This document shows, piece after piece, positions 1,112 to 23,593 of a DNA stretch of 64,000 bases. The position numbers and the translations under genes were made by a program. Positions within the stretch are counted from its first letter, which is position 1, and every line of letters begins with the position of its first letter. The notes below the pieces were generated by a model. It saw nothing but the letters and a program-made list of their open reading frames with translations. It did not search any database and was not told where the DNA came from. The DNA is from an uncultured Caryophanales bacterium (lineage in GTDB: Bacteria; Bacillota_I; Bacilli_A; Acholeplasmatales; Anaeroplasmataceae), in NCBI GenBank assembly GCA_946405105.1, contig CAMJFY010000001.1, positions 1 through 64,000 of the forward strand, read 5' to 3'.

Positions 1112-1273
1112 CTACTTACCACCTTTGTAATTTGAATTATTTGGATTACATTGGTTAGCATGATTATTATTGTTTGCTGTATGTGCAGCATTGTTAGGAT
1201 TATGCTGATTAGCATAATGATTACATTGTTGTTGTGTATGTGTATTTCCTGATACACCATGTGGTTTAGACAT
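1112..1273 (-). CDS. Small Asn/His/Gln-rich protein, unknown
   Basis: A 53-aa protein with no recognised family. It begins MSKPHGVSGN and ends NSNYKGGK. About a third of its residues are Asn, with many His, Gln and Ala and only two Cys (17 and 42). A strong AAAGGAGT site lies 7 nt before the ATG, which supports translation. A longer frame covering the same stretch in another register has no such start. It is followed downstream by convergent DNA ending at the terminator at 1082. Low-complexity composition suggests a disordered peptide; possible roles such as a secreted peptide, toxin or sensor are speculative. Confidence 0.6.
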   Translation of the reverse strand: MSKPHGVSGNTHTQQQCNHYANQHNPNNAAHTANNNNHANQCNPNNSNYKGGK

Positions 1274-1345
1274 AAGCATCACTCCTTTCTGAAAAATTAA
1301 GATTTTATCTTAGAGGCTAAACAGGCTCCAAGATATTTTTGTCGA

Positions 1346-1657
1346 TTAGTCTTCGACAATTATGTATCCAGTTCGAGAACCTTTTTTTCTCTTTGCATGG
1401 AATCTTCTGCCATTCGTTTTCCAGTGAGGAAAGTTATCTGCTTTTTCCTCGTTGGTATCACGATGACAAAGAGCAATATTATCTAGAACATCAGCACCAC
1501 CCTTAGCTAATGGTCTTATATGGTCTAAAGTTGGAAAGAAATCGCTATTTGGATTACCACATGCAGATTTCTTCATCAATCTACCAGCATAGTCATATAC
1601 TTCGGTTTTAGAACCATAAGTCATGTTCCAGACATCTATAGTATTGAATTTTGACAC
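1346..1657 (-). CDS. HNH endonuclease
   Basis: A 103-aa stand-alone HNH nuclease. The betabetaalpha-metal signature is visible: Asp45-His46 in LDHIRPLAKGG, Asn60, Cys64-His65 in LCHRDTN and Asn69. Known members cut double-stranded DNA with one divalent metal, as phage or mobile-element enzymes or as defence effectors. The GTG start at 1657 is chosen because AAGGAGG lies 6-7 nt upstream; the longer frame would start before this site. Neighbours are the Asn-rich small protein and a second XRE gene on the same strand. There is no specificity domain, so a partner or a mobile-element role is likely. Confidence 0.75.
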   Translation of the reverse strand: MSKFNTIDVWNMTYGSKTEVYDYAGRLMKKSACGNPNSDFFPTLDHIRPLAKGGADVLDNIALCHRDTNEEKADNFPHWKTNGRRFHAKRKKGSRTGYIIVED

Positions 1658-1755
1658 CTTGAGTACCTCCTTTCTTAGGTAATCATAGAGTATCATAAAA
1701 AATAGATTAATTGCTGATTTGTCCTAATTTCGGGACAAAAATAAAAATCCTGCAA

Positions 1756-1974
1756 TTAAACAGGATTTTTAGTTACTAATAAATACTCAAGTTTTAAATA
1801 AACATCGTAAGGTATTATACTTTGACCATTTAAATAACTATATAGTGCAGATTTACTGACACCTATAATATCAGCAATGTCTCTAACACTAAGATTATCA
1901 TTATCCTCAATCAAGTTTTTTAGCTTTCGAAGGTTATTAGTATAAGTATTATTAGCTCTTGTATTAATACTCAT
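1756..1974 (-). CDS. Small HTH (XRE-like) regulator
   Basis: A 72-aa protein with one helix-turn-helix (about residues 28-60: LSVRDIADIIGVSKSALYSYLNG). It is a probable transcription repressor. GGGAGG lies 7 nt before the ATG at 1974, so the longer frame upstream is rejected. It sits between the HNH gene and the DUF4238 gene, all on the minus strand, and may regulate the three-gene module upstream. Confidence 0.75.
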   Translation of the reverse strand: MSINTRANNTYTNNLRKLKNLIEDNDNLSVRDIADIIGVSKSALYSYLNGQSIIPYDVYLKLEYLLVTKNPV

Positions 1975-2031: not shown

Positions 2032-3405
2032 TTATTTCTTTTTATCGAAAATATCAATACCTGCTCTATCAGGTAGTATTACATTCTTATAAAAGAATTC
2101 GTTATATTTTAATTCTTTATCAGTAAAATTAGGCTCCGTAATAGCATTTTTCAAATCTTCATATTTTTTTGTTTTAGGGAATTCATATCCTAATTTTTTA
2201 AATTCTTCTATCAAAGAGTCATAGTTATTTCTTTGAAAACCTACAAGTCTATAAACATTCAATGTTCTACGTATCTTACTTGATTCATCAAACCCAAGCC
2301 AAGTATCAATTCTATCGATTGACATGCAATTAATTTTAATTACATCTTCATATGGAATATTCTTCACTGGATAAACAAATACATCATCATCGGAAAGTTC
2401 ACCATTTTTTTTGTACTTTGGAGTACCTGTTTTCATACTTTCAAGCGATAAAGTTGTAGGCCATATATCAGGTTTTTCACCAGTTAAAGCCAGTAATTCT
2501 TCATCAAAATATAGCTTAAAAAATGGATTAATGAATGAAATAGTTCTTGTATTAGAAACAGGGATAATATAATAATTTGCATGAACGTATTTCATTTTCT
2601 CTTCAGTCATATAAAACGCAAATATTTTATCTTTTTCTTTTTTAGTGATCTCCTCTTTTTTTATTGCCTTAACAGTATAAGGATAAAGAGTACTATAAAT
2701 ATACCCTCTCTTTAATATTTCATCAATTTCGTTAGCCCTATAATAATCAATAGGATCCATTTCTTTAGTAACAAAGTCTTTAGAAAAAAGCAAAGGAAAT
2801 GGCTGAAAACGAGTTTTATCATGCTCACAAATCATTCCAACATCCATAATAATAAAATCTTCTTTTGCTTCGGTACTATCTAATATAGACAAACAACAAT
2901 TATTAAAAAGTAATGTCCATTTACAAGCTTCATAAGTTACTTTAGTATGTTTAAAAACATCATCCACATTTTTTGAATCTAGTATAACTTCAATTGTACG
3001 TTGAGAATACTCTTCATCCGTTTCATTTTCTAAAGGTGCTTCTTTAAAGCCTTGTCTTTCAAGACTAACCTTAGCTTCTTGCTTATTCTTTAAACTTTTA
3101 TAAGAATTGGGTGTTCTTATCATTGAAATACACGCAAATTGAACTAATTGCCATATTTCAGTTCTTGTTAAAGATACCTCATTTGAATCAATAAGAATTT
3201 TATTGTCTAATAAATTAGCGATATTTGATTCAAATGTTCCCAACTTATTTTCTAACTCAACCGGATATAATTTCTTTTCACTAAACATATTAAGTGTAGA
3301 TCTTTTATATCTAACCTCACCTGTTCTAACATTAAATAAATTTATTTTGTTCCCAAATCTTCTAAGTATCAATTGTGGTACATAATGATTATTCTCATAT
3401 GCCAT
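2032..3405 (-). CDS. DUF4238 family protein
   Basis: A 457-aa protein whose N-terminus, NNHYVPQLILRRF, is the hallmark of DUF4238. The function of this family is not established; members occur scattered in accessory regions. The rest is globular with no membrane segment and no obvious catalytic triad. The start at 3405 (MAYENNHY) has AAGGGGTG 6 nt upstream, so the slightly longer frame is rejected. It is the last gene of a tight three-gene set with the 162-aa protein and an EEP-fold nuclease, which suggests that they work together. Confidence 0.75.
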   Translation of the reverse strand: MAYENNHYVPQLILRRFGNKINLFNVRTGEVRYKRSTLNMFSEKKLYPVELENKLGTFESNIANLLDNKILIDSNEVSLTRTEIWQLVQFACISMIRTPNSYKSLKNKQEAKVSLERQGFKEAPLENETDEEYSQRTIEVILDSKNVDDVFKHTKVTYEACKWTLLFNNCCLSILDSTEAKEDFIIMDVGMICEHDKTRFQPFPLLFSKDFVTKEMDPIDYYRANEIDEILKRGYIYSTLYPYTVKAIKKEEITKKEKDKIFAFYMTEEKMKYVHANYYIIPVSNTRTISFINPFFKLYFDEELLALTGEKPDIWPTTLSLESMKTGTPKYKKNGELSDDDVFVYPVKNIPYEDVIKINCMSIDRIDTWLGFDESSKIRRTLNVYRLVGFQRNNYDSLIEEFKKLGYEFPKTKKYEDLKNAITEPNFTDKELKYNEFFYKNVILPDRAGIDIFDKKK

Positions 3406-3473
3406 TCTCAACACCCCTTGATAAAAATATAGACATATATTTTCTCATATTTAACTAGCATTTAAAAGTAAGA

Positions 3474-3962
3474 TTATTTTTTAAGATTATCAAGCATTTT
3501 CATAATTAGGTTTCTTACAAATTCGCTTCTAATAATAGATATTATTTTACTTTCAAATTCCTGCTGATTATCAACAATAATTGGCTTATTTTCCTCATCA
3601 TCAAAAATAGTATTTCTAGGATATATCTTTACTGGAAAAAACTCTGAAACAGTAATTTCAAATAGTCTATAGTAATTTTTTTCTGTATATAATATAAATT
3701 TATAGCTCTTGTCACTAAAAGTCTTTATCTCTTCCGTATTTTCACATTCATATGTTTTTTCTTTAACGCCTATTTTTTTAGACATATCACTAATATACGC
3801 TAATGCCTTAGGCAAATTAGACTCATATTCTATCTGTAATATTTTTCCTTTAATTTTACCTTCATACATATCCTCAAGATCATCAATTAGCTTTTGAACA
3901 AATATAACAACTTGCGTTGTTTTCATTTCTTCATTCAAATCAGGCCATACATTATTGCTCAT
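3474..3962 (-). CDS. Conserved-looking hypothetical protein
   Basis: A 162-aa protein that I do not recognise. It is soluble, rich in Lys, Glu and Ile, and predicted mixed alpha/beta with a helical C-terminus. Its ribosome site (GAGGAGG) lies inside the last codons of the upstream EEP nuclease gene, two bases beyond whose stop it starts. It is therefore translationally coupled to the nuclease. The pairing suggests an immunity, adaptor or inhibitor partner of the nuclease, but nothing in the sequence proves it. Confidence 0.7.
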   Translation of the reverse strand: MSNNVWPDLNEEMKTTQVVIFVQKLIDDLEDMYEGKIKGKILQIEYESNLPKALAYISDMSKKIGVKEKTYECENTEEIKTFSDKSYKFILYTEKNYYRLFEITVSEFFPVKIYPRNTIFDDEENKPIIVDNQQEFESKIISIIRSEFVRNLIMKMLDNLKK

Positions 3963-3964
3963 AC

Positions 3965-4729
3965 TTATTCCTCCTCTAAAATTGTAAAAAATAATGGTAA
4001 ATGATCACTAACATTAGGATATCCATTATCATTAACCAAATCTAAGTTGCCAACTTTTTTTAAATACATAACATTATCAATTCTATCAATCAATTCTCTG
4101 CTTACCATAACTTGATCAAACGGGAACCAAATAATTGAGTTATATGAACCAGTATATCTAAAACTTCCATAATCCCTACTTTTTTCATTTAACATAAGTA
4201 ATATAGGATTATAAAACATATATTGTTCATCAGATCGTCTAACCTCTTCTTTAAATGGAATACTCCTTATTTTACCTCGTTTCACAAGTTCTTCATCAGT
4301 AGGTAGGCAATTGAAATCTCCAAGCAGTATCACTTTATCAAAAATCTTTTCATCACTTGTTAAGTCCTCATATAAATCATGCATTGTATCTCCTCTTTCG
4401 CTAGAATTAGAATTAGGATTACTTTGGAGATGTAATGAGGCTATTGTCATCTTTTGATTTTGAGATTTCGAAATAATAAATCTTTTAGAATCAGTAACTA
4501 TATTATAGTCAAGATTATTTTTTTTAATCATAATCACTTTTTTGCAAGATAGTCCCTCTTTTATTTCATAATCATTATTAATAATTGACTCTTTGAATTC
4601 ATCAAAATTTATATTTTCATATTCAGAAATAAACAACAAATCAAGGTTTAATTCCGTAAGAAAAGATAATATATATACTAAGATTTCTTTATTATTCTTT
4701 TTATTTATATTCCAATAACCAACATTCAT
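3965..4729 (-). CDS. Endonuclease/exonuclease/phosphatase (EEP) family protein
   Basis: A 254-aa protein with the full set of EEP (DNase I/exonuclease III fold) motifs: Asn7 in GYWNINK, Glu36 in LLFISEYE, His100 in SLHLQSN, Asp138/Asn140 in LGDFNCLP, and the terminal Ser-Asp242-His243 in SDHLPLFF. The fold hydrolyses phosphodiesters in DNA or RNA, or phosphates of lipids, with Mg2+. All catalytic residues appear intact. The ATG at 4729 (MNVGYW) follows GAGAGTG; an upstream GTG is less likely. It is the first gene of the three-gene minus-strand module, with a TATAAT-containing promoter near 4756. Confidence 0.8.
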   Translation of the reverse strand: MNVGYWNINKKNNKEILVYILSFLTELNLDLLFISEYENINFDEFKESIINNDYEIKEGLSCKKVIMIKKNNLDYNIVTDSKRFIISKSQNQKMTIASLHLQSNPNSNSSERGDTMHDLYEDLTSDEKIFDKVILLGDFNCLPTDEELVKRGKIRSIPFKEEVRRSDEQYMFYNPILLMLNEKSRDYGSFRYTGSYNSIIWFPFDQVMVSRELIDRIDNVMYLKKVGNLDLVNDNGYPNVSDHLPLFFTILEEE

Positions 4730-5005: not shown

Positions 5006-5722
5006 CTATTTCTTATTTAAAATAAACTTACAATCTGGATAATTAGAGCATCCAAAGAACTTGCCATATTTTCCTTCTCTTTCAACAAGTTTTCCACCAC
5101 ATCTAGGGCATATGCCTTCTCTTAATTCAGCTTGAGTTTGTCTTATGTTTTGAACATGTTCTTTATTCTTCATTTGGTTATTTGCAGCTAAAAGTTTATT
5201 GTATATTTCATCCATTTCTTCGATTGAATAATTAGTACCATCATTATAGTTCTTTAGATATGACTTCAAATCATCTAAGTTTACTACATTAGGACAATCA
5301 ACCTTATCTGCATTGTTTTGAACCATAACAACCACTGAATTGATTTTATACTTCTTTCCTAACACCTGTGACATATGATAAATATGAGATTTATTTTGCT
5401 TTAATGGATTAACAAATTGATGCTTCTCACCATTATATAAAGATTGAGTCCATTTGTCCTGATTTTCACTTCCAAAAATCCATCCTATATAATTCTTAGT
5501 CTCTATACAAAAAATGCCATTTTGACGTATTTCTATATGATCTATTTGATGGCTTTTACCATTGTCATCAATAAGAATTAAATCATTGATTTGTCGATGC
5601 TCTACCTTACCAAATATCAATGGATTAAGTTTAGAATCAACTTTGGCTTCTCCAACTTTACCCTTATGATTATTTATTGCCGGTTGAGCAATAGCTTTTA
5701 CCACTTTTTTTAATAAACCCAT
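5006..5722 (-). CDS. NERD-domain nuclease with C-terminal topoisomerase-type zinc finger
   Basis: A 238-aa protein. Residues 20-130 form a NERD (nuclease-related) domain with a PD-(D/E)XK-like core: Asp61 in QIDHIEI and Glu74-x-Lys76 in CIETKNY. Residues 205-231 hold a C4 zinc finger of the type I topoisomerase kind (Cys205, 208, 225, 231; CPRCGG ... FGCSNYPDC), expected to bind single-stranded DNA. NERD proteins are thought to process DNA, and several sit in defence loci. It is downstream of the DUF2130 gene on the same strand (54 nt between them), so the two nuclease-like proteins may form one unit. Confidence 0.85.
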   Translation of the reverse strand: MGLLKKVVKAIAQPAINNHKGKVGEAKVDSKLNPLIFGKVEHRQINDLILIDDNGKSHQIDHIEIRQNGIFCIETKNYIGWIFGSENQDKWTQSLYNGEKHQFVNPLKQNKSHIYHMSQVLGKKYKINSVVVMVQNNADKVDCPNVVNLDDLKSYLKNYNDGTNYSIEEMDEIYNKLLAANNQMKNKEHVQNIRQTQAELREGICPRCGGKLVEREGKYGKFFGCSNYPDCKFILNKK

Positions 5723-5780
5723 ATTTTATACCTCATACTACAAAGCCATTATTTTTAAATCAGAATATTCATTTTCTGGT

Positions 5781-7526
5781 CTATTCATTTTCTGGTAATT
5801 TCTTCAAAATCTTACCATTAAACTTAATTTCATATTTATCAATTTTATTCTGAATTTGATTTATATAAGATTCATTAATTCTATCACATTGAGTATCAAT
5901 ATTTTGAACTGCCGTTCTAATATTATTAGAATTCTTTGAAATTTCTTCTATTGCTTTTTCTAATAATCCTAATGGCTTATCTAAATATGTAGTCTTAATA
6001 TCTTCAAATTCTTGCATTAATGCAAACTTTGTTTTTAAACCAACTTCATTTTCCTGGTCCATAATGATATCAGCAAATTTTGCTGTTAATGATGTAATCA
6101 TATTTAAAAATGTCATCAAATATGCTGGTCTTACTACATACATATCATCATAACCTGATACTTTAAATATTGGTAATGCATTAGGCTTATCCATTTCAAG
6201 ATTTGATACAAGTAATGCGTATTTACATTTCTTCTTTTCTCTATTTTTATCTAATTGCTTATAATAATCAGCATTTGTTTTCTTATTAACTGAATCAGGA
6301 TTTTCGTCTTTCATATCCATGCAAACACTAGCTAATTCCTCATCTTCTTTATGTAATTCACTAGCATATATTCTAAAGATATAATCAGCTTTAGAACCTT
6401 TTGTTTCGCCCTCTTCTTTAACTACTTTATTATCTTTTTCCCACGTACAGTTAAAGAAGCCATTTTGCATGCAAGAAGTAACTTCATTATCACACCAAGC
6501 TTCTAAATCTTCTCCTGTCTGCTTAACATTTAATGCAGCCTTAGCTCGTTGTAAATTACTTATTGCTTCATCTTTATCTCTTAATTGTTGCTCATACATA
6601 TCTTTTTGTTCTTGAAGAACTCTATTCTTTTCAATAGCAAATTCATATTCTTTAGTTTGTAGTTGAGCATCTTTACCTGCTAAAGCTAATTTGTTTTGAG
6701 CATCAATTTCAGAAATCTTATGCTCGTATGTTCTTTCAACTTCGTTTTTTGCTTCAGAAACTTTACTATCAAATTGTGATTTTAAAATATCATATTCGCC
6801 TTTTAAAGAAGAATATTTTTCATTTTGTTCTTGTAATATTTTTGCTTGTGCTGCATCATTTTGAGATTTAAGACTTTCTATTTCTTGTGCTTTAGTTCCT
6901 TTTAACAATTCGATTTCATGTCTTAAATCAGAAATTGTTTTATTAAGTTCTTCTTCCTTCTTAGTTAATTTATCTTTTTCTTCAGAAAGAAGTTTTGATT
7001 TATCCAATTCATTTTGTGTTTTTAATTGATTAATTTCAGATTCTTTAGAACTCTTTAATGATTCAATTTGTTGGTTTAATTCAGTAATTTTATCAGTAAA
7101 TTGTTTAGCAACATCTCGTTCTTTAATTTCTAAGTCTAATTTTTTTTGCTCAGTTAAAGAATCAATTTTATGTTTTAAATCATCTATTTCACTCTGTTTT
7201 TTGGATTTTAATTCTGCAATTTCCTCAGTATACTTTTTTGAAACTTCTTGTTCTTTAATTGTTAATGCAGAGGATTGCTCTTTTTTTAATGATTCTATTT
7301 GAGAATTTAATTTATTAATCTCAATGTCAGTCTCTGCTCTAAATCTCTTTTTTGCTTCTTCAATTCTTGCTGCAACTGCTTTTTCTTTTTCTGAATCAAT
7401 CAATAAATCAACAAAAGATGAATCAACAGAAGATACTTCTTGTAAATCAATTAAATCACCAACATCAGCTGGTTCTAACAATTCTAATAATGTTTTACTC
7501 TTTACTATAACCTTTCTTTTAACCAT
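5781..7526 (-). CDS. DUF2130 coiled-coil protein with nuclease-like C-terminal domain
   Basis: A 581-aa protein. Residues about 45-340 are a long Lys/Glu-rich coiled coil (repeated EIxxLK and KExE heptads). Residues about 345-500 match DUF2130, a family with a restriction-endonuclease-like core; visible pieces are TGEDLEAWCDNEV, GSKADYIFRI and VCMDMKDEN. The likely role is a DNA-associated nuclease, but no activity is established. The start at 7526 has GGAGG 8 nt upstream, so the first 11 residues of the longer frame are rejected. It lies downstream of Wadjet, separated by 94 nt that contain an inverted repeat, and may have its own promoter. Confidence 0.85.
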   Translation of the reverse strand: MVKRKVIVKSKTLLELLEPADVGDLIDLQEVSSVDSSFVDLLIDSEKEKAVAARIEEAKKRFRAETDIEINKLNSQIESLKKEQSSALTIKEQEVSKKYTEEIAELKSKKQSEIDDLKHKIDSLTEQKKLDLEIKERDVAKQFTDKITELNQQIESLKSSKESEINQLKTQNELDKSKLLSEEKDKLTKKEEELNKTISDLRHEIELLKGTKAQEIESLKSQNDAAQAKILQEQNEKYSSLKGEYDILKSQFDSKVSEAKNEVERTYEHKISEIDAQNKLALAGKDAQLQTKEYEFAIEKNRVLQEQKDMYEQQLRDKDEAISNLQRAKAALNVKQTGEDLEAWCDNEVTSCMQNGFFNCTWEKDNKVVKEEGETKGSKADYIFRIYASELHKEDEELASVCMDMKDENPDSVNKKTNADYYKQLDKNREKKKCKYALLVSNLEMDKPNALPIFKVSGYDDMYVVRPAYLMTFLNMITSLTAKFADIIMDQENEVGLKTKFALMQEFEDIKTTYLDKPLGLLEKAIEEISKNSNNIRTAVQNIDTQCDRINESYINQIQNKIDKYEIKFNGKILKKLPENE

Positions 7527-7620: not shown

Positions 7621-8742
7621 CTAATTATTATAAAAACTTTCTTGTTCCAACCATACTTTATTTTTAATCAAATACTCTATAACATCATAATATTTAATTA
7701 ATCTAGGTTTTGTTAATAATGTTTTCAATTTATCAACGTATTTATTATCGTCAAATTTTTGTGCAAATTTTACATTTGACAATAATGTATCTAAATCCAT
7801 ATTAACTGTTTTTATATCTAAATCTAAATACTCCATTAAATCATTTACGATTGTAAATCCGCCATAATCAATATCACCAAAATGATAAAAATCATTACAC
7901 TTTGATTTAATTTTATTTAATACTTTCTTTTGGCTTCTAGTAGAGAATCCACCTAAATATATGATTAAGCCATCAGATTTATAATCATAAAATGTAGTTA
8001 AATTCTCTATGGTAGTTACCTTATTAATATTTTCAAAAGTAATAATATCAACATTATCAATAGGAATACCAATTGATGTTCCACACAAAGATAAATCAAT
8101 CGTTTGATTATTAATTTTTATTATTCCATCACCTTTAACATATAAGTAAGGTGTAACTGAAATTATTCCGCTTTCTTCTAGAATATTTTCAGAATCATAA
8201 ATTGCGTTTAATGTTGTTTTTAAACTTGCTAACTTTTTAGAATCGTTATAAATATAATTACTAGCATTTCTCTCATACACATCATGATCTAAGTTTTCAA
8301 TATAGTGCACGGCTTTTATAGCATCTATAAAATTGTCATCTAAATATTGTTTTATAGATTTATTGTTTTCAATACGTTCTAAAATAGTTGTTTTTAATTC
8401 AACTATTTTTTTATCTTCATATTTATTTAATTCTTCTAATAGTTTTTCTCTTTTATCTGAAACACCTTTAATGCCTAGTATAGATTTTACATCTTCTACC
8501 CTATCAAGTTTTAAATATATATAATCTATCACTGTATCATGGGGAACAAGCTTATAATCAATTAATCCCTGATTTTTAAGTTCATGTATTGTTTCATCAA
8601 ATCCACTAGGATCGTTAAAATATTTAGAATAAGTTTTCTCTGAAATTTTAATTTTGATCTTGGTTTTAAAATTTGATGAGTTTGCATCTCGTTTCTCATA
8701 GATTGACATTAAATCTTTTAGAATTATATAATTATATTTCAT
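7621..8742 (-). CDS. jetD: Wadjet protein JetD (Toprim-containing nuclease subunit)
   Basis: A 373-aa subunit of the Wadjet plasmid-defence complex. The C-terminal part carries a Toprim-type acidic motif, GDIDYGGF (Asp290 and Asp292), the metal site by which JetD nicks or cleaves DNA extruded by the JetABC motor in characterised systems. The N-terminal part (about 1-120) is the DNA- and arm-binding region. The ATG at 8742 is chosen; a GTG 12 nt upstream is the alternative. The gene overlaps the end of jetC by 11 nt, so it is translationally coupled. As the last gene of jetABCD it has the canonical position. Confidence 0.88.
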   Translation of the reverse strand: MKYNYIILKDLMSIYEKRDANSSNFKTKIKIKISEKTYSKYFNDPSGFDETIHELKNQGLIDYKLVPHDTVIDYIYLKLDRVEDVKSILGIKGVSDKREKLLEELNKYEDKKIVELKTTILERIENNKSIKQYLDDNFIDAIKAVHYIENLDHDVYERNASNYIYNDSKKLASLKTTLNAIYDSENILEESGIISVTPYLYVKGDGIIKINNQTIDLSLCGTSIGIPIDNVDIITFENINKVTTIENLTTFYDYKSDGLIIYLGGFSTRSQKKVLNKIKSKCNDFYHFGDIDYGGFTIVNDLMEYLDLDIKTVNMDLDTLLSNVKFAQKFDDNKYVDKLKTLLTKPRLIKYYDVIEYLIKNKVWLEQESFYNN

Positions 8743-11700
8743 GACTAATATCACTCACAATCGCATTATTACCATCACGAATAACAGCAATAAATGTTTC
8801 AATATTATTTGCTAATGAATCAAGTTTGCCAGGAGCTGCAAGAATTACTTGTAAATCTAATTTATCTTTATAAAATTGAAGCATTGATTGAATACGTTGT
8901 GAATCCATCTTATCAAAAGCTTCATCATATAAAACAATTCCAAGTACGTTATCTTTTCCTTTTCTTCTATAATCAAGTGTTTGTTGGAAGGCAACACCAG
9001 CTAAAATATAGAATGGCACTTGGACTTCTCCACCTGATTGTGTCTTAATAACATCATTTAATTTCTTAGTTCCATTTGGTGTTTCAACTTCAACATCAAA
9101 ATATAAATATTTTCTATAATCAACTATGTTATCTCTATTAGCTTGATCATCAGAATACATATATTGATTTAACAAATCTAGTATCTTATTTCTTTGTCTA
9201 TCTTCTTGTTCTCTATCAATAAATAAGCCTCTTTCTGAATCATCAGAATTATACTCTTTAGCATAATCATAAATAGTCTTAAAATCTTGATTTGAAGTTA
9301 CATCCATCTTAATCTTATAATAGTCACTACCAAAATTAAATGTAGCTAGACTATAATTTAGGTTTTTAATAGTCTTTTCAGCAGCCTCTATAGATTTATA
9401 TAATCCAGTTAAGAAAGTGTTAAAGAATAATTTTCTGATACTCTTTTGAATTTCTAATAATTTAGATTTGTATTTAAACATTGATTGATCAATTTTACCC
9501 TTTTCCTCAACAAATCTAGGCATTGAATCATATTTAGGTTCAACATTAAGACTAAAATTGTCTCTAACATTTCTCATTAGATTTTCTATATCAGCTTGAG
9601 CTCTTGTTATAGTTTTATTCAAATTAAGCTTATCTGATTCAAGTCTTGAAATAAAAGCTTTTGTTATCTTTGAATCATTTATTTCTTCACTTAATAATTC
9701 AACAAAATTTTCATCAAACTTAACTAATTGTTCTTTATGGTATGAAATAGAACCATTCAAATTATTAATCTTATCTCCATTTGATTTAATTGTTGCATGC
9801 TCATCAATAATTAATTTATCAATATCCCTAATTTTATTAACATTAGTTTGTTTTTGTTTTTCAACTTCTGCAATCTTTGCACTAGTCTCAATAAATTCAG
9901 GATTTTGTTCGAAGAATTTAATTGATGCAGTTAAATTATTTACTTCATCAAACAACCTATAATCCTTATCAATACTTTCAAAGAAAGAATTGTCTTCAAT
10001 CATATTTGTTGCAAAATCTCTTTCATTTTCAACAAGTCTAATATCTTCTTGTAATTTTTGAAATCTAGCTTTTACTTTAAATGCATTTGCATCAAGTTCT
10101 TTCTTTTGTTCTTTACGATATTCTAATTGAATTCTTCTACCTTCTTGACCGATATATTGCTCTTGATAATTTCTTGGATTAATACGTCCTAATGCATAGT
10201 TTTGATATAACATGCAATCTTTTGTTACAGATATATCATAGCGATCTAATTCGTAAATATCTTTAGCACAATAAACTCTATTTAATAAATATCTAGCATA
10301 ATTTAAAGCTATTGAATTAGAAGCTTTTACAAATTCACCTAAGCTTCCTTTTTCTAAATCAAATTCAGGAAGTCTTGTTCCATTGATGATTTTAGTTTGG
10401 AATATATCCTTATTACTATGATATAGCTTCATAGCTTCTTTATAATACTCATTAGGAACTACTATATAAAATCTTTGGCTTCCTAAATATCCTTCAATTG
10501 CATTACGCCATGAATCGTCAGTAATATCTAAATATTCACATAAAAATTTTACTTCAATATCTGTATTAAATTTATTCTTTAATCCAATTCTAATAAAATC
10601 AATTATTGTGGTATAAGTGCTACTATATTTAACTTGATTATTTTCAAGTTTTTTAATAATATCTTCTAACTCAAATAAACTATCTCTAATGCTTATTAAT
10701 TCATTTTTAACTTTACTATATTCCTCTTTTAACTCATCAATGATTTTATTAGTTTCATTCCTAAAATCATAAAATTGTTTCTTTGTAGTTTCAGATGTAA
10801 ATTCACCTTTTTCTAAGAATTCATAGAATTTATTAAAGCAATCATTTTTATATCTTGATAATACAGATAAACTTGCTAGTTCTGTTTTACAATTAGTATT
10901 GAACGTATTAAGTGTTAAATGAACCTTGTTATATTCTTTTCTTTTATCTTCTAATTCTTTTTTCATTTTAGGAAGATCTGGAGATATTTTCTCTAAAGCC
11001 TTACCCAATTCGATTAATTCATTTTGAAGATTTGTTTGCTCATTTTCAATCATTCTCTTTTGGTTTTCAAAATCAATAATTTTAGAACTTGATGTATCAT
11101 TTTGAGTTTTTAAATCTAAAATTTCTTCATTACTTAATTTAATATTAGCTAAATCAATTTTAATTGACGTTTTATCTAAATCCTTAATACTGTTATCTAC
11201 ACTAATACCTTTATCAACTATTTCAGTTAACGCATTAAGTTTTTTCTCTTCATTTTCGATAGTTTTTGACACCTTGCCCATTTCATCAATGTTGCTTTTT
11301 ATCGTTGAAACATCAATTGGTTTTGCATCTAAAACAAAATCATTAATGAATTTATTACAATCTGTAATATTTTTTAATCCTACAGCTCTAGATAATGCCT
11401 TGAAATAAGCAGTTTCATCTTTTAATCCTAAAATATCTTTTAGTTTTAATTTATAAGCATATAAAGTTTGGAAAGGAACAAATTCATAGCTAGCTTTTAA
11501 TTCTTTTATTAATACATCATATGATTTAGGAAACTTATCATTAATAAACAATTCCTCTGTTAAATCTAAATCTTTAACATAAAAATATCTAGGGTCATCT
11601 AGTTTAGATAATGTAGATCTATAATTTACATTTATGCCAAATACATGCTTAGTTCCGTTAGAAATAATTTCTAATGCTAAATATGTAATTACATCACCAT

Positions 11701-11950
11701 TTCTTAAGAAAGGCTCTCCATCAACTCTAACTTCACCTCTTACATATGATTCTAGAGTTCTTTTTTCAGCATTTGCATTAGCATTAAATTTAGCTTGTTG
11801 CTGTCCTAATAAAAGCATTTGGATGGCATCAATCAATGTTGATTTACCTGTACCATTAATACCTACTAATGCTGTATTACCGTTAATATTAAGAGTGGCT
11901 TTTTGAAAATACATCCAATTAATTAATACAACTTTATTTAATTTAATCAT
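8732..11950 (-). CDS. jetC: Wadjet protein JetC (SMC/MukB-like ATPase)
   Basis: The 1072-aa motor of the Wadjet system, an SMC-like ATPase that extrudes loops of circular DNA. Walker A GINGTGKST is at residues 30-38, and the ABC signature TQSGGE (about 971) and Walker B GIVLYDEAFDK (1004-1014) are at the C-terminus. The two halves are joined by long coiled coils interrupted by a hinge-like region around 420-560 (LGSQRFYIVVPNEYY). The length agrees with the family. It overlaps jetB by 8 nt at its start (GATGATTAA) and jetD at its end. All catalytic motifs look intact, so the motor should be active. Confidence 0.92.
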   Translation of the reverse strand: MIKLNKVVLINWMYFQKATLNINGNTALVGINGTGKSTLIDAIQMLLLGQQQAKFNANANAEKRTLESYVRGEVRVDGEPFLRNGDVITYLALEIISNGTKHVFGINVNYRSTLSKLDDPRYFYVKDLDLTEELFINDKFPKSYDVLIKELKASYEFVPFQTLYAYKLKLKDILGLKDETAYFKALSRAVGLKNITDCNKFINDFVLDAKPIDVSTIKSNIDEMGKVSKTIENEEKKLNALTEIVDKGISVDNSIKDLDKTSIKIDLANIKLSNEEILDLKTQNDTSSSKIIDFENQKRMIENEQTNLQNELIELGKALEKISPDLPKMKKELEDKRKEYNKVHLTLNTFNTNCKTELASLSVLSRYKNDCFNKFYEFLEKGEFTSETTKKQFYDFRNETNKIIDELKEEYSKVKNELISIRDSLFELEDIIKKLENNQVKYSSTYTTIIDFIRIGLKNKFNTDIEVKFLCEYLDITDDSWRNAIEGYLGSQRFYIVVPNEYYKEAMKLYHSNKDIFQTKIINGTRLPEFDLEKGSLGEFVKASNSIALNYARYLLNRVYCAKDIYELDRYDISVTKDCMLYQNYALGRINPRNYQEQYIGQEGRRIQLEYRKEQKKELDANAFKVKARFQKLQEDIRLVENERDFATNMIEDNSFFESIDKDYRLFDEVNNLTASIKFFEQNPEFIETSAKIAEVEKQKQTNVNKIRDIDKLIIDEHATIKSNGDKINNLNGSISYHKEQLVKFDENFVELLSEEINDSKITKAFISRLESDKLNLNKTITRAQADIENLMRNVRDNFSLNVEPKYDSMPRFVEEKGKIDQSMFKYKSKLLEIQKSIRKLFFNTFLTGLYKSIEAAEKTIKNLNYSLATFNFGSDYYKIKMDVTSNQDFKTIYDYAKEYNSDDSERGLFIDREQEDRQRNKILDLLNQYMYSDDQANRDNIVDYRKYLYFDVEVETPNGTKKLNDVIKTQSGGEVQVPFYILAGVAFQQTLDYRRKGKDNVLGIVLYDEAFDKMDSQRIQSMLQFYKDKLDLQVILAAPGKLDSLANNIETFIAVIRDGNNAIVSDISHEI

Positions 11951-12560
11951 CTATATCATCTCCACCCTTTAATAATTCAATACGAGTTAATATCTCATTA
12001 ATTTCTTTGAAATCCATTGCAACTTCAATTGATGGATAGATAGTAATAACTGTATCATCTAAAGCTAAATCATCTTTATAGTAAATAATATTGTGTTGCT
12101 TAAATATTTGTAACATTTCTTTTAATGTGCTTCTTTTAACTCTATCAGTAGATTGTGAATCGAAATTGAAAGAGAATAGTTGATTTTGAAGTTCGCCAAC
12201 AGTTGTTTCAATTTCATCTGCTAAAGAAACCTCATCAATCTTCTTTTGATATAGAAGTCTCAATACTAATAATGCTAACGTTTCGTTTTTTGATATATTA
12301 CTAATTAGAGTATCATCGTTTGATTTAATATAAACCAATTCTTTATCTTCTCTAATATTAAAATCAAAATTCATATATTCAAAAAATAGTGATAATAATT
12401 CCTTATGATTAATAATAAAAGAATATACTTCTTTATTTGTTATTCTTAATAAAAAATTAACTTTTAATAATTTTATAGTTACATTTTTCATCATTGTTTT
12501 TTCATTTTCACTTAACAAACAATAAAGTTCATTAAATCTTGTGCTTTCACTATTAGTCAT
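11943..12560 (-). CDS. jetB: Wadjet protein JetB (DUF4194-like, kite-type subunit)
   Basis: A 205-aa protein in the position and size of JetB, the winged-helix (MukE/kite-like) subunit that bridges JetA to the JetC motor. The sequence is mixed helical with repeated winged-helix-like stretches and no catalytic motif. The start at 12560 has GGGAG 8 nt upstream and lies one base after the jetA stop codon. The longer frame, which runs back into jetA, is rejected. Identity rests mainly on gene order and size plus the DUF4194-like C-terminus. Confidence 0.82.
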   Translation of the reverse strand: MTNSESTRFNELYCLLSENEKTMMKNVTIKLLKVNFLLRITNKEVYSFIINHKELLSLFFEYMNFDFNIREDKELVYIKSNDDTLISNISKNETLALLVLRLLYQKKIDEVSLADEIETTVGELQNQLFSFNFDSQSTDRVKRSTLKEMLQIFKQHNIIYYKDDLALDDTVITIYPSIEVAMDFKEINEILTRIELLKGGDDIDD

Positions 12561-12561
12561 A

Positions 12562-13944
12562 CTATTGTACTCCCTTCTCTTTAAGAATAAAGTCATTAAA
12601 TGTGACTCCATTCTTAACTATTCTTTCTTGCGATAATTCTAATTCATATAATGCATTAGGCAATTTAGAATAAATCATAATCGCAATCATCATTATGAAT
12701 TCATATTTAGAACTAATATCTAAATCAGATATCTTTCTTGTTTTATATCCATTCAAAAAATTTAATACAAATTCATTTACAGCATAAATATTATATTTTT
12801 TATCTTCTTGTAATAATTCTAAAGTTTTATTTTTAACTTCTTCATCCATTTCAAAATCTAATTGCATCATATCAGGTTTTGGTTTTGGATTATATTTTCT
12901 AGGTTTACTTAAAGCATCAAATGAATAATGTTTCATTTCAAATAATGATATGAATGATTCATCTATATCATCATTTTTCTTTACATAGTCTATTAATCTA
13001 TGTAATATACCTTCAATATCTTCTCCTCTGTTTATTAAATGAATAATAACAGATACTGTTCTTGTAACATATTTTTCATTTTTAGAATCAATGCTTTCAA
13101 TAATTGAAGGAATAGCTTTAATATTTGCCATTATATTTTTTCTTGTTTGTTCAACATAATTTGATGCTTCATCATAGTCAACTTTTTTCTCATCAGAATA
13201 TGCTTTTACAAGTTTTTCCATATTTAGAAAATCAGAAAAAATCTCTTCAATTCTATCTTCAAGTTCAGGAATAACAGCATCAATATTATCTCTTATTTTA
13301 AGATTCAAATATGCTTTATCAAAGAAATATTCTTTATATTCTCCGGTAAACTCTTCAAGAAGCAATTCGAGATTTTGCTTATCTTTATTCTTGGTAATAT
13401 TTCTATAATATCGTCTAATATCTGAACGTAGTCCCCTTAAAGCATCAACTTCTTTTTTAAAATTGTCATCAACTATTTGTAAACTATCTAAAATGTTATA
13501 TTTAAATTGCTCAAGTTCAGTTTTTATTATTCTTATGTAACTTGTATACTGAGGTTTGCTATTATTAATAATTTCTTCTATTAAGAAAATGAAACTATAG
13601 GCATGCTTATTAAAATCTAATGTCTTTTTACCATTTCCAAGTGCCTCTTCAACTAACCAGTCATATTCTTCTAGTTTGTTGATTAGTAGTTGAGCTTTAA
13701 ATCTGTTATCCATTTCATCTTCAATTGCATCATTAGAATCATCATTATATAATTGAATACTTGCTTGATTATTTAAATAATCAGTTAAAATATCAACAAT
13801 TTTAGTTTTATCATTTTCTTGTGTTTCAAATAATTCATTGATTACTTTTTTTAAAAACAAGATAGTGTCTATATATACTTTTTTATTTCTACTCGAAAGA
13901 GGTGTAAAAAACTTCTCACCTGTAATATCATATAACGATGCCAT
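12562..13944 (-). CDS. jetA: Wadjet protein JetA (kleisin-like, DUF5716-like)
   Basis: A 460-aa helical protein beginning MASLYDITGEKFFTPLSS, the typical opening of the DUF5716-like JetA found in type II Wadjet systems; type I JetA belongs to DUF3375. It acts as the kleisin-like (MukF) subunit that ties the JetC ATPase heads. AAGGAGGTGTCTAT precedes the ATG. It starts 22 nt after the stop of the GIY-YIG/helicase gene, so Wadjet may be read through from the restriction-modification operon. The type assignment is from recollection of family architecture and is moderately sure. Confidence 0.82.
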   Translation of the reverse strand: MASLYDITGEKFFTPLSSRNKKVYIDTILFLKKVINELFETQENDKTKIVDILTDYLNNQASIQLYNDDSNDAIEDEMDNRFKAQLLINKLEEYDWLVEEALGNGKKTLDFNKHAYSFIFLIEEIINNSKPQYTSYIRIIKTELEQFKYNILDSLQIVDDNFKKEVDALRGLRSDIRRYYRNITKNKDKQNLELLLEEFTGEYKEYFFDKAYLNLKIRDNIDAVIPELEDRIEEIFSDFLNMEKLVKAYSDEKKVDYDEASNYVEQTRKNIMANIKAIPSIIESIDSKNEKYVTRTVSVIIHLINRGEDIEGILHRLIDYVKKNDDIDESFISLFEMKHYSFDALSKPRKYNPKPKPDMMQLDFEMDEEVKNKTLELLQEDKKYNIYAVNEFVLNFLNGYKTRKISDLDISSKYEFIMMIAIMIYSKLPNALYELELSQERIVKNGVTFNDFILKEKGVQ

Positions 13945-13966: not shown

Positions 13967-16828
13967 TTATTTTTTTAGAGTTAAGAACCCTTTTTCAAAA
14001 GCAAATCTTACTCCAAATGTTTTTTCAACATCTTTAAATTTGATTTTTATATGTCCTGTATTAACATCGAATTCAATAACTTTTCCTTCACCAAATGCTT
14101 TATGAATAACCGCATCGCCTACTTTTATTTTAGGCAATTTAAACTCTTCTTTCTTTGGTTCTTCTTTCTTTGGAGTATGAGTCCAAATTGGTTTTGTTAC
14201 TGTTGATGTTGTTGCTGTAACTGAAGGTGTTGTTTTAACAACTGTTTCAGTCTTTTTAACTATACTATCACCTTTATAAGCTTGTTGAATAAACCCCTCT
14301 AAAGTCTTTTGTTGTTCACCATAGAACATCTTATATTCTTCTTCAGTAATAACAGTAGAGAAACCTCCGACTTTTTCACCTTCATGTTTATTAATACCAA
14401 CATATTCAAGTGAAGAATCCTCATAACGTTTAAACTTATATACGGCATCATCCATTAATCTTTCATTAAATATACCTAATGATACCAACAAGTTAAAATC
14501 TGCGACTTCTAAACCAGTTACTTTTTTAAATAATGATGGTTCTAATTTAGTTATAACATCCTTTAAAGAGTATTCACGGAAATCAGTTAAATACATAAAT
14601 ACAGGAATTCTTGTAGCAAACTTAATAAGCTTTTCTTGAATTTGCTTGCGTTTGCTCTTATATTCTTTTTCTTCTTCGGATAATTCCTTCTTTTGCTTAG
14701 GTGTTAAAGGTTTATCTGATTTTTTCTTTTTCTTTACATCTTCAGATTTAGAAATAATTGTTGAAATATCCTGATTTAATGAACGGAATCCCTCAATTTT
14801 CATCAATATAGCCATTGCTTTTTCATTAGCTAATAATCTCTTTAATGTATCATTATCCACATTGACTAATAATGCAGATTCCCAGCGTCGTGCTAATAAC
14901 GAAGCAGTTGTTCCGCTCATTGCAATATCTAAAATTTGCCCTGCATCAATTTCTTGCATGGCACCATCTTGATAAGCAAGTACAGGTAAGAAATTAATAA
15001 AATCAGCTACTTTCTTTTCCGGATTAGTCTCATTAACATCAAGTTTTGTAGCATAATCAGCTATTTGTCTTAAAGCTCTATTTAATGAGAAATCAAATAC
15101 ATAGCACTCGTTTTTAATTATTACCTCATTACCATTATCATCCTTAGTAGTCCATGGAGATTGTACTCTAAATGCAGATTGGAAATAAGTTTCAGGTGTT
15201 GATAAACCTCTTAACATAAAAATACCAGTCCATGGTTTAACTGTTACACCTGTTGTTAGTTTTCCACATGTTAAAGTTATTGTTTTACTGTTTAAAGGAT
15301 CTTTCATTGATTCTTGAACTGGTCTTAAAGCATCTAATCCTACACCAGCTCCTGTTCCAGCACAAATATTTATTGTGTAATCATGATAGAACACATTATT
15401 CCTATTCTTTAGTAAATTTGCCATAGCAAAACACGAAGCTACATTTGGTAAAAACCATAATGTATGATTTAACACATTTAATAAGGAAACCTCTTTAAAA
15501 GGTAAGAAAGATTGACTTCTAGATGTAGAAACTAAAGTGTCATTAATAGAAACCTTAGTGAAATCACCTCTAATGATATCAAGCCATTTTTGAACTTCAT
15601 TTTCATGAATGAATTTAGCTTTTTCCTTTTCACCTTCTGCTTTAAAGAATTCATTTAAATCAAACTCATTTAATTCTGTATTTTTAGCAATATATGTAAC
15701 AGATTCAGGAAGCTTATAAGTCATTAAAACAATGCGTGGTAAAGAAGCATATGGATTCTTACCATTTGCATAATTCCATTCTTCTTTAGCTTTTTGTTCA
15801 TCAGAATAAGTCCAGTTATAAACTTGTTCTTCGATAAATTCACCTGAATTAATAGCTCTAAATGGCGTCCCAGATAAATATAAGTATTGGTTTGCAGTAA
15901 TAGGCAACCAAGTTTCATCTAGTAATTCAGATGCATCTGTAACCTCTTTTTCTTCTTTTTCTTCATCTTGATCAGCAAATAACTTTTTTGCATTTTCTGT
16001 CCATGCCCCAAAATGATATTCATCAAAAACACATAAATCCCAGTTAGTGTCATGAATGAATTCATTTTTAGCTTTAATTCCACCTAATTCATTAGTACCT
16101 AATAAATTTTGGAACGAACCAAATACAACAATGGGTTTTGACTTATCACATGCATTAAAATCTAAATCAAGTCTGCTCTTGTCGTTTTTAGCATCTTTAT
16201 CTGATACAAATTGCCAGCCTTCAAAATCTAAGTGAGCCATTAAATCTTCTTTCCATGCTGACTCAACAGCTGGCTTAAAAGTAAGAATTAATACTCTCTT
16301 AAAATTCATTTTCTTACATAGTTCATAAGTGGCAAATGTTTTACCAAAACGCATTTTGCAATTCCATAAGAATTTAGGAGTAGCATCAGGTTCATTTTTC
16401 TTTATATCATTAAAATAATCAAAAGTCTTTTTGACTGCTTTCGCTTGTTCAGGGCGCATTTTAAAGCTAAGAGTTCTGTTCTCTTCGTTCTCCGTTTTAT
16501 TAAAAACAGCTAAATACGCAGCCTTAACTTTATTTAAATCACATTCATACCATTCACCAGCAACATTAGTAACACCATGTTTATCTAAATAATGATGTAT
16601 GTCATGATCCATAAAAGATGAACCATCTTCTCTAATTGCAGGTGCAGTCCATTCTACTTTCCATGTTTTATTAGGAACTATAGTTGGATAATGTTCCTTC
16701 ATTCTTTCTTCAATAGGTCGAGTTGTATATCCTATTTTTAAAGTGTGTGGAAAACTAGAATCTGAATATGCATAAACAATTGGTTTTATCTGAGGTTTTT
16801 GAGGAAAGAAATCCTTACTCATCGTCAT
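13967..16828 (-). CDS. GIY-YIG nuclease / SF2 helicase fusion (restriction protein)
   Basis: About 954 aa, with four parts. Residues about 10-110 resemble the MUG113/T5orf172 GIY-YIG fold ([20 protein letters not shown]). An SF2 (type III Res-like) helicase follows, with Walker A MRFGKT (about 160), DEYH box VFDEYHFG (about 270), motif III-like YLSGTPFRA and motif [12 protein letters not shown] basic linker leads to a C-terminal Tudor-like module ([19 protein letters not shown]), similar to that of PcrA/UvrD. It probably translocates on and cuts DNA lacking the cognate methylation. The start is uncertain between 16828 (MTMSKDFF) and 16822, as it overlaps the methylase stop. Confidence 0.82.
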
Positions 16829-18428
16829 CACCACCATCCAAGGCTACAACATTGTCATCCATTGGTCGTATCATAGAATTAATAAAACTAATATTATCAT
16901 CAGATAGATTGTATTTTTTATATAGTTCCTCATCTGTCCATGATTTAGAAAAATCTTGTACAGGGACAAATGAATAAACACCTTTAGCAGCATTTTGAGA
17001 GCTCTTTTTCAACAATACTAAAAATCTAAAAAACTTAGTTTTTATATAAGAAATGACATTTTTACATTCTTCTTCTGATGCAAATGGTCCGATAACTAAA
17101 TATGTTTCTGTACAACATGTATTTTTTTCAGCAATAAATGGTTTATTAATAACTTGATGTGGAAATCCATCTCCAGCATTGTAAGCTTTAGAAATCAAGA
17201 CCTTATATTTATCAACCCAATTATTATTTCTTAATATTTTATCCTTAGAAGTGTAGCAAATTCCACCACGTTGATAAACTTTAACACAATTATCAAATTC
17301 TGAATCTTTGCCTTTAAATGTAGTAGTTATACCAAAAGGTTGTCTTGCACTAACATACTCATCAAATGTGTTCTCGTTAAATTTTTGGACTTTATGTAAT
17401 ATATCTACTGATTCATTGAATCTAATAAATACATCCGATCCCTTTTCACACATTGGTCTTTCAGCAACTGACATGATTGTAGAATCTTTGTGAGTTACAA
17501 CTTTACATTTTCCTTTATTATCTCTTTCCCACAAAAAATAACATACTCCACCTTTAATTTCGACACCAGGGAAACATTCTGCAGCATTTAAGAAATCATG
17601 CAAAACTCTAATTCTATCATCATGTATCATCTCATCTCTAAAATCGTCCAATCCTTTTCCACCAGCGAACCAGCGTGATGGTACAATCATAGATAAATAT
17701 CTTGGATTTAATTTTTTAGCTTTTTGTATAAACAATTGATATATCGGAGAGGCACTAGAACCTGCTCCGCCATCATCTAATTGATATGGTGGATTACCAA
17801 TAATTACGTCAAATTTCATATCTTTAAAAATCTCCTTAGGGTCATTAACATGTATAAATTCATATGCATGAGTTTCTAGAGAAAAATCTCTATCATATTC
17901 TGCTTTTGAAGCTCCACAAAAACTACATTTTCCATCTTTCCATGTGTGTTTTACTTTTTTAAATCTAATATTCCCATCAGCATTCTCAAATTTACTAATA
18001 GAATAAATACAATTTGGATATTTAGAACAATATAAACTTCTTCTAGCTAAAAGACTAGTTAATTCTGTTATGCCAATTCCATAAACTTGATTATGAAGAA
18101 TATGATCAATTGTTTCTTGTAATATTTTTAAAAACAATTCATCATTACCATCAAGCGTTATACCTTCCCTTTTTTTATCATCAATAAATTGTAGCTGTTC
18201 TTGATAGTTAGGTATTTGTGCATTTAATAGTCTTTTTGTTATTTCTCGTAAAAATACTCCTGATTTAGTAAACGGGTCTAAAAACTTAGCATTTCTATCC
18301 ATCCAAATGTTATCTGGTAATAAATCAAGCATTGCGTTAGCAACAGTTGGAGGTGTAAATACTTCATCATTAGATAGATTTGCAATACAATTTAATACAT
18401 CAGGATTAAAGCTATTAAAATCACTCAT
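16815..18428 (-). CDS. Eco57I-like N6-adenine DNA methyltransferase
   Basis: A 537-aa methyltransferase of the gamma N6-adenine class. Motif I is a variant, [13 protein letters not shown], near residue 47; motif IV is the canonical NPPY in [12 protein letters not shown] (about 211), followed by [14 protein letters not shown] Cys-rich patch, CSFCGAS (about 170), and CSKYPNC suggest an inserted zinc ribbon. The C-terminal part (about 330-520) would serve as target recognition. It transfers methyl from SAM to adenine. It overlaps the upstream methyltransferase-like gene by 8 nt and the downstream helicase gene, so the three are coupled. Confidence 0.85.
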
Positions 18429-19092
18429 ATTTTTGAACCTCCCTATAATCAGTTAATGGATATTCTTTAATAGGAACATCTAAACTTTCTCTTGTTTGCT
18501 TTTCAACTTCTTCATCAAAATTAAATAAATTTATTTCTTCAGTGGCAACAATTTGTTCTGCAGCCAATATTCTAGACAATTCATAATCTCTTCTCTTCAA
18601 CATCGTGCCATTAACAAATTTCCATTCAGCAAATACAATTGGTTTCCCATCATTTTTTAACATTGTTAAGGCATCACCACATAATATATTTTTCGTTAAT
18701 ATATATCTACAAGCTTCTCTAGCTTTGTCACTTGAACTTGATTTTAAAATCTTTGTATATTCTTCATTCCAAATATTAAATAATCTTTCAATACAAGCTT
18801 CAACATTATCTTGCAATATATCAACACCATACAATGATGTTACTGCAATAATGGAATACATCTCATAATCATCCAAATGATTTTTATATCTACTAGAAAC
18901 AATATTTAATTTTCTTTTTAAAATTTCGGATAAAAAATTGCCATCACCACATGCTGGTTCAAGAAAAGTTGATTCAATATTTTCAGTTTCATTTTTTACT
19001 AAATCAAGCATTGCATTTACTTCACGTTCGTTGGTAAACACTTCACCGTGATCTCTTACTCTTTCTTTTGATTTAACTTGTTTTTTTGCCAT
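18421..19092 (-). CDS. Second N6-adenine methyltransferase-like subunit
   Basis: A 223-aa protein. The SAM-binding motif I is strong: [16 protein letters not shown] (about 45). Before it stands [17 protein letters not shown], which is mirrored in the next gene by [16 protein letters not shown]; the two therefore share an origin. No NPPY or DPPY motif is visible, so by itself it may not be a complete methyltransferase. It could bind SAM or pair with the larger one as a heterodimer. It is the first gene of the R-M operon; a probable promoter lies in the 130-nt gap upstream. Confidence 0.78.
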
Positions 19093-19199
19093 AATAACAT
19101 CACCATTATATACTTCATATTTTGCACTTCGAATCGAAATACCGATATTCTAATTTTATCATATTTCATCATATACTAAAATATTAAATATTTTAATAT

Positions 19200-19225
19200 A
19201 CGAAAAAAAGCCAACAATTTGGCTT
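19200..19225 (-). terminator. Intrinsic terminator after the DUF2075 gene
   Basis: AAGCCAA pairs with TTGGCTT around a 4-nt loop with a T-run on the minus strand. It overlaps the stop codon of the helicase gene and separates the TrlF/DUF2075 unit from the R-M operon. Confidence 0.7.
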
Positions 19226-21089: not shown

Positions 21090-21110
21090 AGTTAATCACC
21101 TTTTTATTAA

Positions 21111-21404
21111 TTATTCACTAACCAATTCCGAAGGAATATTATTTTTAATATTTTTTAATTCACTTTCTAATTTTTTTAAGTATTCTTCAGAAATCTCTTT
21201 AAACAAGTCATCTTCGTGTTTAGAATAATCAAAAACAAATTTTACTTCATCAGTAAATGATAACTCAATCAATCTATAAAAAAGACTTGTTAAACCTTCT
21301 TGTTCATCAGAATTCAAATCAATGTTATATTCCTTATCGTCTTTTAAATCAAAACGTAATACATCTCTATCATTTATTTTTTCCAAAAAAACACTATACT
21401 CCAT
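21111..21404 (-). CDS. Small acidic protein coupled to the PHP-ATPase
   Basis: A 97-aa acidic protein (many Asp and Glu), with no family recognised. The start at 21404 (MEYSVFLEK) lies inside the last codons of the PHP-ATPase gene, an 11-nt overlap, and GAGAGAGGTG precedes it. The strict coupling and small acidic nature are compatible with an inhibitor or assembly partner of the ATPase. This is inference only. Confidence 0.65.
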   Translation of the reverse strand: MEYSVFLEKINDRDVLRFDLKDDKEYNIDLNSDEQEGLTSLFYRLIELSFTDEVKFVFDYSKHEDDLFKEISEEYLKKLESELKNIKNNIPSELVSE

Positions 21405-23544: not shown

Positions 23545-23593
23545 TTTCCCCTCCAAAACTCTTCGCTTATTATTTTTTTACAAGTCTAAATTT

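Follow-up and report, generated by a model that had tools for sequence, protein, structure and literature searches.

The DUF4238 gene of a P2-like prophage confers, on its own, strong resistance to phage T7 (Rousset et al. 2022, PMC9122126). It had been taken from the gpA-gpQ hotspot of P2, a location in which several anti-phage genes, DUF4238 included, were found and validated, and which also holds genes that are not devoted to defence, such as partition systems (PMC9122126). The nucleases of the EEP superfamily (DNase I, ExoIII, TDP2, LINE-1 EN and nocturnin) have a common fold and a full metal-ion active site. Several DNA-targeting defences, among them Nhi, Hachiman, Retron-Eco8 and AbpAB, respond to the phage SSB (PMC12904381, PMC10732053).

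The window analysed here is a stretch of 64,000 nucleotides from an uncultured bacterium of the Anaeroplasmataceae. It carries a clear member of PF14022 (DUF4238; positions 2032-3402, minus strand, 456 aa; 70.9 bits against a gathering cut-off of 27), the family for which anti-T7 activity has been published in a relative. The published DUF4238 system consists of a single gene, whereas the copy of the window has a downstream HTH partner (1756-1974, minus strand, 72 aa; HTH_3 27.2 bits, cut-off 23) and adjoins a gene pair. This pair is made up of an EEP-fold nuclease gene resembling DNase I, ExoIII and TDP2 (3965-4729, minus strand, 254 aa) and the gene of its 162-aa partner (3474-3962, minus strand), whose family is marked by a [GF][YF]P motif near the middle of the protein; such pairs also occur in the hotspot that yielded the published DUF4238 gene. 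A preliminary description had read the nuclease, the small protein and DUF4238 as one system of effector, regulator and sensor, with the HTH gene as a possible repressor. Its account of the gene content holds: the three open reading frames lie on the minus strand at the positions just given, the PF14022 score bears out the DUF4238 assignment, and the small protein is indeed coupled to the nuclease, as its ribosome binding site (AGGAGG, 3975-3970, minus strand, read from the sequence) lies within the end of the EEP gene and its start is 2 nt past the EEP stop. The DUF4238 gene starts 71 nt beyond the small gene and has a separate ribosome site (AAGGGG), so these two genes are not translationally coupled. 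Since the sole strong terminator-like hairpin (1771-1742, minus strand; 12 pairs and a T run) is found 3' of the HTH gene, with none between the other genes, all four genes, EEP and 162-aa as well as DUF4238 and HTH, are perhaps on a single transcript. Their GC content (25.6-27.5%) is similar to that of the adjacent Wadjet genes (24.7%).

The shared strand and the closing terminator-like site would suit one integrated system, expressed from one transcript, in which the EEP protein is the effector, the 162-aa protein an adaptor, DUF4238 the sensor and the HTH protein the repressor; the attachment of a defence-type gene to the EEP pair in other lineages too would agree with such an arrangement. 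Nevertheless, the 71-nt gap and the separate ribosome site speak against it, the EEP pair and DUF4238 each occur alone elsewhere, and the triplet was found nowhere else in the 395 genomes of the class and the 392 genomes of the phylum that were searched, which makes this interpretation very unlikely. The preliminary description had tied its three-gene reading to the recurrence of the three genes together. The EEP gene does recur with a small protein (18 loci), but the triplet with DUF4238 never does, and for this reason the three-gene reading fails whereas the two-gene reading survives.

The distribution of DUF4238 points in the same direction. This gene is present in 13 genomes of the order, including that of the window, and none of the other 12 contains an EEP of the family studied here (0/12). 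Two of them, G027 and G045, gave weak EEP matches that were rejected, as they correspond to ordinary EEP genes adjoining an esterase-like gene and devoid of the small partner. A small HTH protein comes after DUF4238 in G131 and G093, and probably also in G007, none of which has a family EEP; it is 31-33% identical to that of the window in the first two and 27% in the third. Because the same pair exists without EEP in related genomes, the HTH gene of the window is better assigned to DUF4238; the repressor role suggested earlier is probable for the DUF4238 unit, to which this HTH protein would be dedicated. From its neighbourhoods, DUF4238 appears to stand as a gene in its own right, accompanied by a separate HTH partner, and comparison of these neighbourhoods indicates that the two are not a sensor for the EEP pair. 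Given that DUF4238 and HTH recur without EEP, that EEP pairs recur without DUF4238 and that a published DUF4238 gene is active alone, the window is best divided into two adjacent units. We consider it fairly probable that these are two two-gene units in a defence island, namely a mobile nuclease-partner module acting against phages or plasmids and a DUF4238/HTH anti-phage unit.

Some other genes were seen around DUF4238. In the place of the HTH gene, G121 and G125, genomes of the same family as the window, have an uncharacterised 272-aa gene (L009 362-1180 and L017 2679-3497) whose start overlaps the DUF4238 stop. Downstream of DUF4238 and HTH, members of two separate families within the order encode small Asn-rich proteins of 56 and 62 aa, with NHANQ/HSNQ-x-NPNN repeats (window 1112-1282 and L008 476-664, both on the minus strand). 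A small HNH endonuclease gene (1346-1696, minus strand) lies just past the HTH terminator in the window and has a GC content of 36.8%, above that of its neighbours.

The EEP gene and its small partner were found in 18 non-identical loci from about ten lineages, between which the EEP proteins are only 19-36% identical. The EEP gene comes first and on the same strand as the partner in 18/18 loci, and the distance between both genes ranges from -17 to +14 nt in all but one, the exception being pEC904, in which the partner is frameshifted. The hosts are Acinetobacter plasmids, mini-plasmids of Klebsiella, Edwardsiella and E. coli, a Photobacterium plasmid, a Proteus chromosome, Acinetobacter prophages, a Vibrio filamentous phage, a plasmid of an uncultured bacterium, Rufibacter, and lambdoid-, Mu- and P2-like prophages. 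Closer to the window, family EEPs are restricted to two of the 395 class genomes and two of the 392 phylum genomes, which are the same two, and DUF4238 lies beside the EEP gene only in the window. In G139, which belongs to the same family as the window, the EEP gene has a serine recombinase upstream and, after it, the gene of a small protein with 28% identity to that of the window, without any DUF4238. A distant blastn search of complete E. coli genomes with two family members gave no match. EEP matches from Bacteroidota plasmids (Aureibacter, Bacteroides finegoldii and Flammeovirga) were rejected because they are longer and lack the small partner. To judge from this distribution, the EEP and 162-aa genes are a horizontally mobile nuclease module.

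The EEP protein of the window scores below the Pfam cut-off for Exo_endo_phos (21.2 bits against 24.5), and its assignment comes from structure and active site. Its AF2 model (pLDDT 73.5, pTM 0.80) matches EEP nucleases almost end to end (VIA-align Z 16.7-18.9 over 186-223 residues), among them LINE-1-type endonucleases (18.9-18.2), TDP2 (18.0), ExoIII (17.6) and DNase I (17.5), and the modelled protein has the two-layer EEP fold. Sixteen residues (W6, N7, E36, H100, S103, G137, D138, N140, P143, N174, G188, D205, Q206, D242, H243 and P245) are invariant in 18/18 EEPs. They include the complete catalytic set of the superfamily (N, E, H, D-x-N, D and D-H, here N7, E36, H100, D138, N140, D205, D242 and H243), in agreement with the intact motifs of the preliminary description, which had also singled out H100 and D138; both choices are correct since both residues are invariant in the 18 relatives. 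With respect to the nucleases of the superfamily, the family forms a distinct, intracellular subfamily in which YNP and W...DQ motifs are conserved, is always paired with a small partner and was matched weakly by xth models. The protein of the window begins directly at the first beta-strand (MNVGYWNIN) and has no signal peptide. A secreted nuclease of the MnuA or ExeM kind was rejected because in all members the first EEP strand carries its WN motif as close as 6-22 residues to the N-terminus, leaving a signal peptide no room. According to the modelled structure, the substrate could be DNA, RNA or another phosphoester, among which the fold alone does not discriminate.

The partner proteins are much more difficult to compare, as their mutual identity is low, often below 25%, and family membership was therefore tested by leave-one-out HMM with 5000 shuffled sequences as decoys. 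The partner of the window obtained 20.2 bits, and the highest-scoring decoy 13.5. The other held-out partners scored 25.4 (G139), 25.3 (Acinetobacter prophage), 28.6 (Vibrio phage), 22.4 (pTR) and 45-104 (others); that of Rufibacter is marginal (14.0 against a decoy at 13.0) and its assignment rests on position. The alignment by hhalign of the two Mollicutes partners with the proteobacterial ones had a score of 33.8 (E 5e-5), while 20 column-shuffled profiles scored at most 15.1. By these profile comparisons, the small partners are homologous across the diverged lineages, Rufibacter being the marginal case. The core that they share consists of a [GF][YF]P turn between strands and, after it, two helices. 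Access to the family came by way of the EEP neighbour and not from direct search: the 162-aa protein as query gave no match in plasmids or phages and, within the order, only G139 and a weak match in G103, rejected as an unrelated long frame. A scan of viral contigs with the partner alignment confirmed none. The structure model of the partner is weak (pLDDT 60.5) and nothing in the fold search matched it with confidence (lowest Foldseek E-values 0.18 for PDB and 0.13 for viral models); a likeness to the C-terminus of Mediator MED17 (VIA-align Z 8.5) was discarded as evidence, since such Z values are common by chance. Both members of the pair have counterparts in PHROG, where nine of 11 EEPs match phrog_24714, listed without function, and five of nine partners match phrog_10179, which has no listed function either. 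The fixed pairing of the two is not recorded in PHROG.

Several scenarios may explain such a pair. One of them is a classical toxin-antitoxin (addiction) module, in which the EEP protein, a cytoplasmic nuclease toxin, and the partner, its neutralising antitoxin, would retain plasmids and prophages in the cell. The tight coupling of a gene of about 300 codons to one of about 150, on tiny plasmids with Rop as the sole other cargo, is compatible with the layout of a type II system, and further toxin-antitoxin genes lie close by in two loci. Toxin-first gene order is known among toxin-antitoxin systems. Some Acinetobacter prophages have a frameshifted nuclease gene and an intact partner gene (L034 1181-1546 and L067 4001-4522), which favours this scenario; yet pEC904 has the opposite, an intact EEP and a partner gene frameshifted near its start (L041 2060-2527), possibly through an error in an old sequence, and no DNA-binding domain was found in the partner. 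An addiction module seems somewhat unlikely, and since toxin-antitoxin and defence functions overlap, it would not be exclusive of a role in defence.

The genomic context of the pair is informative in this regard. In two P2-like prophages (L049 and L052), the pair lies between gpA (Phage_GPA) and gpQ (Phage_portal), that is, in the hotspot mentioned above. In Acinetobacter prophages the EEP gene overlaps the integrase stop, and in ColE1-type Klebsiella plasmids of 3.5 kb the pair is the only cargo besides Rop (20 Klebsiella records matched). Where genes are attached to the pair, they are of defence or toxin-antitoxin types: AbiD in three Acinetobacter plasmids, FRG (PADLOC PDC-S15) in Acinetobacter prophages, an MTES_1575 REase in L049, HicAB in L052 and DUF4238 in the window; elsewhere there are none. 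Frg is viewed as an anti-viral effector of the ART superfamily (PMC9503650). In Rufibacter (L036 5773-8201), a HEPN_Swt1 gene (PADLOC PDC-M34B-like), an HTH gene, the EEP gene and the small protein gene follow each other in one direction. The defence-rich island of the preliminary description was also recovered, with a complete type I Wadjet operon (JetABCD, 7621-13944, minus strand) and restriction-modification and Abi-like genes beyond it. Between the pair and Wadjet (5006-7526, minus strand) lie genes for a NERD-nuclease and zinc-ribbon protein and for a coiled-coil DUF2130 protein, and the island continues (13967-23556, minus strand) with split type IIG-like restriction-methylation genes, an AbiO/Nhi-like protein and a PDC-M49A-like protein. 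By association with these locations and neighbours, a defence role would be the leading reading of the pair.

The same surroundings could nevertheless reflect a service to the mobile element itself, such as DNA processing or repair (clearing of end blocks or protein-DNA adducts in the manner of ExoIII and TDP2), plasmid maintenance or a lysogenic conversion unrelated to defence. The best structural matches include TDP2 and ExoIII, the pair adjoins integrases, rolling-circle gpA genes and rep genes, and the SSB-like tails described below would suit docking to DNA repair. Yet the pair is sporadic, missing from nearly all related genomes, and its carriers are replicons that are not related and that replicate in different ways (ColE1-type, filamentous, P2-like and Mu-like), unlike what is expected of a gene required by a single replication pathway, and we hold this scenario to be quite improbable. 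In the leading reading, that of a defence module, the EEP protein, which has a complete metal-ion site, would be an intracellular, Mg-dependent nuclease controlled or targeted by its partner; the small protein would bind the nuclease, either keeping it harmless or aiming it, and the nuclease would attack competing phages or plasmids by cutting their nucleic acid, so that the resident element or the host of this element is protected.

One branch of the family offers a clue about targeting. Five partners of the enterobacterial branch end in DDDIPF, DDIPF, DDIPF, KDIPF and DFIPF (partners with such an xxIPF tail include L048 4878-5309, L049 4881-5306, L037 2048-2485 and L042 50-514), although outside the tail they are merely about 30-60% identical to each other. 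DDDIPF is the C-terminal docking motif of the E. coli SSB (PMC5872125), and among 505 ORFs of at least 80 aa in the examined loci an IPF C-terminus is found only in partner proteins. This suggests that, in the enterobacterial branch, the partner docks on the replication or repair proteins that read the SSB tail, as a mimic of the SSB C-terminus. The pair would thereby resemble Nhi, Hachiman, Retron-Eco8 and AbpAB in its nuclease effector and its possible link to the SSB network; these systems respond to the phage SSB, whereas here the partner itself bears the SSB-like end, and in one branch only. No SSB-linked defence with this arrangement is described in PMC12904381 and PMC10732053. Because the tail is absent from the Proteus member and from all non-enterobacterial branches, including the window, it is not the whole explanation. 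A new two-component defence family in which an SSB-tail-mimicking partner delivers the EEP nuclease to invading replication intermediates, the branch of the window being targeted in some other way, is a further, unlikely proposal.

The description of the pair as an uncharacterised nuclease module remains valid. The EEP members, the 162-aa protein and the DUF4238 protein of the window match no model of PADLOC-DB 2.0 (2023), and neither "EEP" nor "DNase I" has an entry in a review of anti-phage nucleases published in 2026. The pair is not described in the searchable literature on EEP in phage defence, on FRG and on mini-plasmids, a scope outside which most subscription journals lie, so that a recent description may exist. 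On present sequence comparisons, the EEP pair is probably an undescribed anti-phage module.

The reparsing of the locus, with DUF4238 and its own HTH gene set apart, aids the annotation of a system that is validated but unexplained. The remaining pair, of about 1.3 kb, has reached three phyla or more, carried by ColE1-type mini-plasmids and by P2-like, Mu-like and filamentous phages; being mobile, present in a proven anti-phage hotspot and absent from PADLOC, it is a concrete new defence candidate. The mimicry of the SSB tail offers a specific and testable mechanism and, if the proposed delivery of the nuclease by an SSB-tail mimic proves true, nucleases of the EEP/DNase I type would join the dedicated immune systems of bacteria as a new class of effector.
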